Shown here piece by piece: positions 56,859 to 59,951 of a stretch of 64,000 bases of DNA. Within the stretch, counting starts at the first letter, position 1. The number at the start of each line of letters is the position of its first letter. The notes under the pieces are model-generated. The model was given only the letters and a program-made list of their open reading frames with translations, was not told the origin of the DNA and ran no database searches. Where the stretch lies: positions 992,001 through 1,056,000 of the forward strand of contig JAJGRE010000002.1 in NCBI GenBank assembly GCA_021083345.1, read 5' to 3'. The DNA comes from Calditrichales bacterium MX18-03. GTDB taxonomy: Bacteria > Bacillota > Clostridia > Lutisporales > Lutisporaceae. The translations under genes and the position numbers were made by a program.

Positions 56859-58202
56859 TTAGCCAATCATGCCGTCCACAGCACCCAGGACTTCATCCAT
56901 GATTGTCATGGCTTCAGAGAGCTGCGCTTCGTTGATGGTCAGCGGCGGTGCCACAATGACCATGTTCTCATGGGTATAGGTCCAGAAGCCCTTGCTCACC
57001 AGCATGCCCAGGATCTTCTTCATCAGCTTCTCCGGATCCTTGCCGTAAGCTACCAGCGGTTCCTTGGTCTCTTTATCCTTTACCAGCTCGATGGCCGTGA
57101 ACAGTCCGATGTACCGCACATCCCCTACGCAGGCATGCTTTGCCTTCAGGTCTTCCAGAATGCCGCCCAGCACCTTGCCCATGGCTTTGGCATTCTCTAT
57201 CAGCTTTTCTTCCTTGTATACGTCTATGGTCGCTACTGCCGCTGCACAGCCGATGGGATGGCCGCTGTAGGTCAGTCCGCACCACAGCATGTTGTCGTCA
57301 AAGTGTTTTGCTATCGCCTTGCTGACGATGACGCCGCCCAGCGGTACATAGCCGCAGGTTGCGCCCTTTGCAAAGGTGATCATGTCCGGCTTGACGTTCC
57401 AATGGTTCACGGCGAACCATTCGCCCGTTCTGCCCCAGCCTGCCATGACCTCGTCGCACACCATCATGATGTTGAACTCGTCACACAGGTCTCTTACGCC
57501 CTGCAGGTAGCCGTCCGGCGGGATGATGATCCCGTTGCTGCCCGTTACCGTCTCAAGGAATATGGCCGCTACATGATCCGGTCCCTCATACAGGATCTGC
57601 TCTCTCAGCTGTCCGATGTAGTACTTCGTCGCTTCCTTCTCATCCTTGAACGCAAAGGGCGCTCTGTACACATAGGGATCAAAGAACTTCACAAAGCCCG
57701 GTATCCCCGGCTCGCTGGGGAATCTTCTCTGCTCTCCCGTCAGGTTGGCCGCGCCGTAGCTGGCGCCGTGGTAGGAACGGTATCTGGAGAATACTTTGTT
57801 CTTGCCTGTGAACATCCTGGCGATCTTGATGGCGTTTTCGTTGGCTTCCGCTCCGGCGTTTACGAAGAACACCTTGCCCATGTTGTCAGGGCTCACTTCG
57901 ATGATCTTTCTTGCTGCTTCCGACTTGCAGTCGAAGGCAAAGGCCGGTCCCATGAAGGGCATCTTGTCTGCCTGTTCCTTGATGGCTTCGATGACCTTCC
58001 TGTTGCCGTGTCCGATGTTCATATTCACCAGCTGGGAGGACATGTCGAAATACTGCTTGCCGTCCGCATCCCAGAAATAGATGCCTTCAGCCTTTGTGAC
58101 CACGATGGGGTTCAACGCGCCCTGCGCGCTCCAGGAATGCAAGCTATAGGCCAGGTCGTCGCCCTTTACCTTTTTTCCGTAATCCATGACATTCTCTGAC
58201 AT
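56859..58202 (-). CDS. Class III omega-amino acid:pyruvate-type aminotransferase (beta-alanine or taurine)
   Basis: A 447-residue fold-type I PLP enzyme. It has FVNAGAEANENAIKIAR, the SYHGASYGA segment, VCDEVMAGWGRTG with the PLP-binding aspartate, and the Schiff-base lysine in TFAKGATCGYVPLGG (about 277). Class III enzymes of this subtype act on terminal amino groups, for example beta-alanine, taurine or GABA. Start ATG 58202 has GGAGGA upstream; a longer frame from 58241 runs into the structured intergenic element. It is downstream of the CoA-acylating aldehyde dehydrogenase, so its aldehyde product is probably passed on to that enzyme. Malonate semialdehyde from beta-alanine suits the decarboxylase next door; taurine is the main alternative. 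Confidence 0.85.
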   Translation of the reverse strand: MSENVMDYGKKVKGDDLAYSLHSWSAQGALNPIVVTKAEGIYFWDADGKQYFDMSSQLVNMNIGHGNRKVIEAIKEQADKMPFMGPAFAFDCKSEAARKIIEVSPDNMGKVFFVNAGAEANENAIKIARMFTGKNKVFSRYRSYHGASYGAANLTGEQRRFPSEPGIPGFVKFFDPYVYRAPFAFKDEKEATKYYIGQLREQILYEGPDHVAAIFLETVTGSNGIIIPPDGYLQGVRDLCDEFNIMMVCDEVMAGWGRTGEWFAVNHWNVKPDMITFAKGATCGYVPLGGVIVSKAIAKHFDDNMLWCGLTYSGHPIGCAAAVATIDVYKEEKLIENAKAMGKVLGGILEDLKAKHACVGDVRYIGLFTAIELVKDKETKEPLVAYGKDPEKLMKKILGMLVSKGFWTYTHENMVIVAPPLTINEAQLSEAMTIMDEVLGAVDGMIG

Positions 58203-58236
58203 TCTTTCTCTCCTCCATCTACATTTAATGAGATTT

Positions 58237-58505
58237 GACAAACCTTGATTTAACGGATGATATGTATAAGCCCGTATTGTTACCCTTATCAGAAAGGACT
58301 AATTGCTCGTATCATTAAAAAACCTAACGCTTTAAAACCGTGCCTCGTGCAGGTGCGGCAATAAATGCTGGCAACTGCCGTTGGCATTTATGCCGATGCG
58401 TCCGTGCAAGTCTTACGGCTTTTGAATAATCCTTCGCAAAGTCCTTTTAGCTGAACGACTAAAGATACGTCATTATACATATCACCGTTTGAATGTAGGT
58501 TTGTC
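58237..58505 (-). other. Large nested inverted-repeat element between aldehyde dehydrogenase and aminotransferase genes
   Basis: The 322-bp gap holds no gene but strong nested pairing: GACAAACCT (58237-58245) with AGGTTTGTC (58497-58505); AACGGATGATATGTATAA (58252-58269) with TTATACATATCACCGTT (58473-58489, one bulge); AAAACCGT with ACGGCTTTT; ATAAATGC with GCATTTAT. AAGGACT/AGTCCTT and CGTATC/GATACG would cross each other as a pseudoknot. It looks like a structured RNA domain or MITE of about 270 nt. Confidence 0.65.
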
Positions 58506-58524
58506 AGTACTTATTGCCTATTCT

Positions 58525-59922
58525 CTAGTCGTTCATTACGTCTCCAAAGAGCTCCTCATCCGTTGGTTTGACCGGCGGGAAAGGTCTGGATACCCAAGTG
58601 GTATTGATCATATGCTTCCAGGTGATGTTCTCCGAAACGATGTTCCCGCCCCAGGAGCCGCAGCCCAGGCTGGTGGTGAACGGCATGCCGTTGAACCAGT
58701 TGCCTGTGTTGGCCAGCGCCTGACCCTGGCGTACGTTCATGCGGCTTACCTTGGTCATCATGGCCAATTCCATGATATGGTCCTCGTTGAAGGAGTGGAT
58801 GCCGCAGGAGTGGCCCATTCCCTGGTACTTAGTGATTTCATTGACCTTGCTGACGGCTTCTTCGAACTTGCCATATTTGAACAGTGCTACCACCACCGAA
58901 AGCTTCTCTCCGGAGAAAGGATGCTCTGCGCCGACGCCTGTCTCTTCCACCATAATGAACTTCCTGTCCTCAGGAATCTCGATTCCTGCTTCCTTGGCGA
59001 TGGTCTGTGCCGACTGGGCAATGATCTTGGGGCTCAGGTGTCCGTCAACCCACATCGCTGCCTGCAGCTTTGCCTTTTCTTCTGCTGTTGCCAGGTATCC
59101 GCCTTCGGCCTTCAGCGCTTCGATGAGTCCTGCGTAAACGCCTTCCTGTATGATCAGCGAGTTCTCAGCCGAGCAGCTGGTTGCAAAGTCGAAGGTCTTG
59201 CTGCTCTTGATCTTGTTGGCTGCATCCGCCAGGTCCGCTGTCTCATCTACCACGACAACCGCATTGCCGGCGCCTACGCCGTATGACGGTGTGCCTGATG
59301 TATAAGCCGCTTTTACCATTCCGGCACCACCGGTGGCCAGTACCAGGTCAACCTGCTTCATCAGCTCGTTGCTGATCTCCAGTGTGGGTTCTTCAATGGC
59401 GATAACCAGGTCTTCCGGTGCACCGTACTTCTTCAAGGCCTCTCTCATGATGTTTGCGATATAGGCATTGGTCTTCTTTGTCCTGGGGTGGGGGGCCAGT
59501 ATGATGGCATTTCTTCCCTTCAGTGCGTGGGAAACCTTGACTGTGGGTGTCGCTTCCGGATTGGTGCAGGGGCACAATGCGCCGATGACCCCTACCGGCT
59601 TTGCGATCTTCATGATCTGTTTTTCTTCGTCTATTTCGATGATGCCGACGGATTTCTTGCCCTGCATGTCGCGTACGGCACCCTTGGCCTTTGCCATCAG
59701 CTTGTTGTATTTTCCGTCAAAATTGCCCATGCGGGATTCTTCGACAGCCAGCTTGGATATTTCCTGGGCCGGGCCGTCCTTGACCACGTTCCACACCACT
59801 GCACGGACCAGTTTGTCAACCTGTTCCTGGTTATAGTATTCGATGGCTTCCTGTGCCGCCCTGGCTCTTTTCACCAGACCCGCCACATATTCCGCTGCAT
59901 TCAGGTTCATTTCATTGCTCAT
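58525..59922 (-). CDS. CoA-acylating aldehyde dehydrogenase (malonate semialdehyde or sulfoacetaldehyde type)
   Basis: A 465-residue enzyme of the acylating ALDH group (EutE/SauS-like). It has GVIGALCPCTNPEATP, ILAPHPRTKKTNAY, ATGGAGMVKAAYTSG and the catalytic cysteine in FATSCSAENS (about 247), with a C-terminal LGCGSWGGNIVSENI. It would oxidise an aldehyde with NAD and CoA to an acyl-CoA. The nearest named type I can recall is acylating sulfoacetaldehyde dehydrogenase, but the adjacent aminotransferase and (methyl)malonyl-CoA decarboxylase favour malonate semialdehyde or methylmalonate semialdehyde. It is the fourth gene of dctP-dctQ-dctM-ALDH-aminotransferase. Confidence 0.85.
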   Translation of the reverse strand: MSNEMNLNAAEYVAGLVKRARAAQEAIEYYNQEQVDKLVRAVVWNVVKDGPAQEISKLAVEESRMGNFDGKYNKLMAKAKGAVRDMQGKKSVGIIEIDEEKQIMKIAKPVGVIGALCPCTNPEATPTVKVSHALKGRNAIILAPHPRTKKTNAYIANIMREALKKYGAPEDLVIAIEEPTLEISNELMKQVDLVLATGGAGMVKAAYTSGTPSYGVGAGNAVVVVDETADLADAANKIKSSKTFDFATSCSAENSLIIQEGVYAGLIEALKAEGGYLATAEEKAKLQAAMWVDGHLSPKIIAQSAQTIAKEAGIEIPEDRKFIMVEETGVGAEHPFSGEKLSVVVALFKYGKFEEAVSKVNEITKYQGMGHSCGIHSFNEDHIMELAMMTKVSRMNVRQGQALANTGNWFNGMPFTTSLGCGSWGGNIVSENITWKHMINTTWVSRPFPPVKPTDEELFGDVMND

Positions 59923-59951
59923 TGTTTTTCCTCCTTAATGTCCCTTTTTGA

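Follow-up and report, generated by a model that had tools for sequence, protein, structure and literature searches.

The structured element at positions 58237 to 58505 on the minus strand of the window, the 64,000-nucleotide stretch of DNA that was analysed, was interpreted, with a probability of roughly 0.78, as one insertion of a MITE-like hairpin repeat that is scattered through the genome and has a diverged TwoAYGGAY RNA (RF01731) at its centre; intact copies of the repeat are proposed to titrate CsrA. Within an operon, the element is situated on the coding strand, between the open reading frame of an aldehyde dehydrogenase (ALDH) upstream (58525 to 59922, minus strand) and that of a 447-residue aminotransferase downstream (56859 to 58202, minus strand). 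Its outer ends, GACAAACC and GGTTTGTC, fell at 58237 and 58505, exactly the limits assigned in the initial annotation. A single long imperfect hairpin was predicted for this segment on both strands. The minimum free energy on the plus strand was -90.9 kcal/mol (z -7.1, with none of 200 shuffled sequences equally stable), while on the operon strand positions 58220 to 58520 folded at -96.8 kcal/mol (z -7.3, again with no shuffle as stable), which confirmed that the organised pairing noted in the initial annotation clearly exceeds chance. The outermost portion of the long inverted repeat consisted of a 5' arm, GACAAACCTACATTCAAACGGTGATATGTATAA (58473 to 58505, minus strand), paired with a 3' arm at 58237 to 58269 (minus strand), a pairing supported by the fold and by covariation in ten copies. 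The nested pairs and the 17-bp arm with one bulge, in which AACGGATGATATGTATAA (58252 to 58269) pairs with 58473 to 58490, had been described correctly, but the two crossing pairings thought to form a pseudoknot were not supported by the folds and the covariation. The structure is nested, and it accommodates every covarying pair found.

The element was considered to be an insertion because about 13 dispersed copies were found and because it was absent from both the paralogous and the orthologous gaps. The copies were intergenic and were recovered from the organism's own genome (4.69 Mb) with E-values down to 1e-101. The full-length copies were 93, 83, 80 and 71% identical to the element, and the shorter ones were internally deleted forms of 185 and 93 nt together with fragments. 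In the alignment of these copies the tip of the element was modular, with internal stems exchanged or lost from one copy to another. A second ALDH-aminotransferase pair is located 10.7 kb away on contig C8 (ALDH at about 1061 to 1062.4 kb, aminotransferase at 1059579 to 1060916), and the two versions are 98-99% identical, yet the gap in the second pair is TAAAATAATATGGAGGAG, an empty site. The orthologous gaps in two sister genera (G002 and G001) measured about 60 and 20 nt and were likewise empty. The element is thus small, dispersed and multicopy, bounded by inverted repeats and without a transposase gene of its own. No larger element sharing its ends was found by DNA searches of the same genome, and a transposase of the Y1 (TnpA-REP) family, looked for as a possible source of mobility for these copies, was absent. 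In a comparison of the second gene pair (G000:C8:1059579-1062350) with the window (56864 to 59936), the last 34 nt of the window ALDH gene, which adjoin the element, carried 8 differences, so that homogenisation of the two copies seems to stop at the insertion.

A riboswitch or ribozyme-like element controlling the aminotransferase, as put forward in the initial annotation, was not supported. The strong structure and the position on the coding strand between the ALDH and aminotransferase genes would agree with a cis-acting riboswitch or attenuator sensing a metabolite and controlling the aminotransferase gene, but this possibility was judged very remote. The other copies occur in mixed orientation beside gltX, an SsnA-like amidohydrolase gene, ppiA, an ABC-F gene, coaE, ylqF, sleB and others, so that the association with one class of genes expected of a riboswitch was not observed, and a metabolite switch in the window is unlikely because the near-identical duplicate gene pair carries no such element. 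A scan of the window with Rfam at the gathering score gave no matches, riboswitch families included, and nothing relevant emerged at relaxed thresholds; the initial annotation had rightly remarked that the boxes of known riboswitches were missing. Moreover, the only terminator-like site between 58150 and 58600 was on the strand opposite to the operon.

Two alternatives, a structured RNA of a new kind and a MITE, had been offered in the initial annotation, with the remark that many copies at unrelated loci with target-site duplications would favour the latter and that a lack of covariation in homologues would count against the former. The element appears to be both at once, although the RNA is not new, its core being a diverged copy of a known family. 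Copies at unrelated loci were abundant, but a clear or consistent target-site duplication was not found for the copies in this genome. The covariation was strong. When ten of these copies were aligned, 12 of 47 pairs showed compensatory changes, 96.7% of the alignment cells were paired, and the number of compensatory cells was 31 as compared to 10.8 in shuffled alignments, a value reached by none of 500 shuffles. In a covariance model of the copies from sister genera, 31 of 44 pairs had compensatory changes. By this comparative evidence the element is a constrained RNA fold besides being an insertion.

The left arm can also be read as a peptide, MYNDVSLAVQLKGLCEGLFKSRKTGTDARLG..., and a decayed protein-coding fragment such as a transposase remnant would account for the open frame in several copies and for the apparent bias of changes toward the third codon position. 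This explanation was rejected as the least credible of those considered. The frames are broken or shifted in five of the copies (L024, L025, L027, L029 and L030), a longer open reading frame for the same peptide is absent across the sister genera, there was no Pfam match above the cut-off and no convincing protein relative beyond the repeats themselves, and the third-position changes fall on stem positions that are compensated by their partners.

The relationship to TwoAYGGAY was apparent from comparisons within the bacterial family. A blastn search across 60 relatives gave no matches, nor were there any in phage and plasmid collections or in exact-pattern scans of collections of genome contigs and viral contigs. 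Only a profile of the left arm retrieved multicopy homologues in most sister genera, for example 20 in G013, 12 in G006 and 11 in G008. These homologues have two hairpins with AYGGAY loops, CUAG between them and GUUAG after, and several matched RF01731 above the gathering threshold (54, 52.1, 51.6, 50.7, 48.1 and 48.0 bits). A covariance model, R2, was then available from sister-genus copies only (44 pairs); it matched the core of the window element at 58452 to 58293 (minus strand) with 44.3 bits and an E-value of about 4e-9, which is rough owing to a short calibration, and the paralogs in the same genome at 95.6, 92.8, 75.2, 73.7, 65.1, 60.2 and 45.0 bits. The window copy and its paralogs consequently share sequence and structure with confirmed TwoAYGGAY members. 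As in that family, there is a long outer stem with internal loops, and four paralogs (L024, L026, L027 and L045) keep both AYGGAY loops. Unlike confirmed members, the copies in this genome have diverged beyond the reach of the Rfam model, RF01731 having no match above its gathering threshold in the window or anywhere else in the genome, and the RNA sits in the middle of an inverted-repeat element that has been inserted at dispersed sites. TwoAYGGAY elements are sometimes closely spaced in pairs of opposite orientation (L122, L123 and L085).

The window copy itself has one AYGGAY loop, ACGGAC (58400 to 58405, minus strand), on a stem weakened to 3 bp. The second AYGGAY hairpin is absent, and alignment and folding placed another stem module, GGCATAAATGCC...GCATTTATTGCC (58357 to 58394, minus strand), in the region that it would occupy; the same module was found in two other copies (C8:137k and C10:368k). 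Since it scores below the RF01731 threshold, the window copy is classified, from its sequence, as a diverged derivative of TwoAYGGAY and not as a curated member, and because one weak ACGGAC hairpin remains while the second has been lost, it is probably a decayed insertion.

Since 2010, to our knowledge, no function has been established for TwoAYGGAY. The RNA family itself is known, having been described by Weinberg et al. 2010 (PMC2864571), as is the proposal of Gardner and Eldai (PMC4333381; 2014-15), based on the resemblance of the loops, that it binds CsrA; at that time the only known RNAs that sequester CsrA came from Gammaproteobacteria. The distribution of csrA was therefore compared with that of the RNA. 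TwoAYGGAY was present in 24 genomes from 12 families among the 393 genomes of the class, and csrA was encoded in 23 of the 24, as compared to 134 of 393 overall (Fisher p 8e-11), or by genus in 19 of 19 as compared to 81 of 219 (p 1.4e-9), these being raw counts uncorrected for phylogeny and motility, with a single control RNA, raiA, for which csrA was found in 40 of 84 genomes. The genome studied here also encodes csrA (C8:803839-803991). The gene was not detected in two TwoAYGGAY-bearing genomes, G015 and G305, with estimated completeness of 95% and 98%. Lineage or motility may account for part of the association. The co-occurrence makes the CsrA-binding proposal much stronger, and the TwoAYGGAY loops look as if they were made for binding CsrA.

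The sequences flanking the element were distinctive in one sister genome, G013, where terminator-like hairpins, mostly whole, stood as direct repeats on both sides of all eight copies examined (L089-L094, L116 and L117); they differed from copy to copy and were 13-35 nt long, mostly 28-35 nt. The direct-repeat scores were 25-60, whereas comparisons across copies gave at most 21 (permutation p < 5e-5). In this genome insertion is associated with terminator-like hairpins that have been duplicated as a whole, which is unusual as a target pattern. In the genome that contains the window, the flanks beyond the conserved ends carried copy-specific inverted repeats (permutation p < 5e-5) and weak direct repeats (p 0.026); the inverted repeats would fit the decay of duplicated palindromes of the kind seen in G013. 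Outer ends of the form ATGCGACA(C/T), located outside the conserved GACAAA-type ends, were common to different genera (L106-L108 in G008; L029 and L030 in the genome studied here), and it is possible that they represent an ancestral transposon terminus.

In another genome, G410 (L142, L143 and L157-L159), the arms, which extend up to about 150 nt, were 82% alike within a copy and 64% alike between copies, which suggests concerted evolution of the hairpin arms. The pattern was weaker in G036 and G045, and G057 showed no effect (p 0.35). Likeness of this kind is what conversion within a copy would give, and could also be taken to indicate a plain MITE. Such an inverted repeat would act only as DNA, have no RNA function and be moved by a transposase acting in trans, and template switching from arm to arm (quasi-palindrome correction) would produce the compensatory changes. 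The dispersed copies, the inverted-repeat arms and the lack of a conserved open reading frame are all in accord with such an element. However, the stems vary between genera but the internal loops, the junction GUAAG...CUAGG...CGUUAG and the AYGGAY hairpins are conserved; correction would remove mismatched loops, and a nearly exclusive co-occurrence with csrA would be unexpected for a neutral MITE. A plain MITE was thus considered improbable, though less so than a riboswitch or a coding remnant, and an inserted repeat with a TwoAYGGAY-derived RNA core was preferred. Taken together, the duplicated hairpins of G013 and the concerted arms of G410 point to a mechanism of insertion or maintenance that could not be matched to a known type of transposase.

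Several bacterial repeats resemble the element. Like the MITE-like palindromic repeats RUP and BOX, it is small, intergenic, modular and multicopy with inverted repeats, as are the Correia, ERIC and bcr elements. It differs from such repeats in that 1) the short target-site duplication is not seen in the genome studied here, 2) the flanking direct repeats in G013 are terminator-like hairpins specific to each copy, and 3) the core is an RNA fold conserved across genera. The CsrB/RsmZ RNAs titrate CsrA in Gammaproteobacteria. TwoAYGGAY shares with CsrB, RsmY and RsmZ the GGA in hairpin loops, the paired sites and the occurrence in csrA-bearing genomes, a link already proposed in PMC4333381, and Rfam clan CL00106 holds TwoAYGGAY together with RsmY. 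The Gammaproteobacterial RNAs are the products of one or a few dedicated genes, whereas the RNA in Clostridia is a dispersed repeat present in many copies with two sites in each, and CsrA binding by the latter is putative.

Intact copies, when transcribed, would form a long stem displaying two hairpins with A-Y-GGA-Y loops, to which a CsrA dimer might bind, so that by analogy with CsrB and RsmZ these RNAs would titrate CsrA. The window element would be transcribed as part of the ALDH-aminotransferase mRNA, and its contribution to CsrA binding is most likely small or nil, given that one AYGGAY hairpin is weakened and a foreign stem replaces the second. Locally it would act like any strong intercistronic hairpin, with a mild change in the processing or stability of the mRNA, and not as a ligand-dependent switch.

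A broader and more doubtful suggestion, offered tentatively, is that TwoAYGGAY elements act as CsrA sponges that spread by themselves. As mobile hairpin repeats of Clostridia they would insert at intrinsic terminators and duplicate the whole terminator, such that read-through of the first copy would yield a separate CsrA-titrating RNA whose end is set by the second. No description of TwoAYGGAY mobility, of the duplicated terminators or of the co-occurrence with csrA was found in the literature searched, which included few subscription journals. The co-occurrence makes the CsrA proposal directly testable. If the suggestion is true, a mobile element sets the titre of a global regulator, transposition of a multicopy repeat could determine the dose of the CsrA sponge, and operons would be littered with decayed copies such as that in the window.
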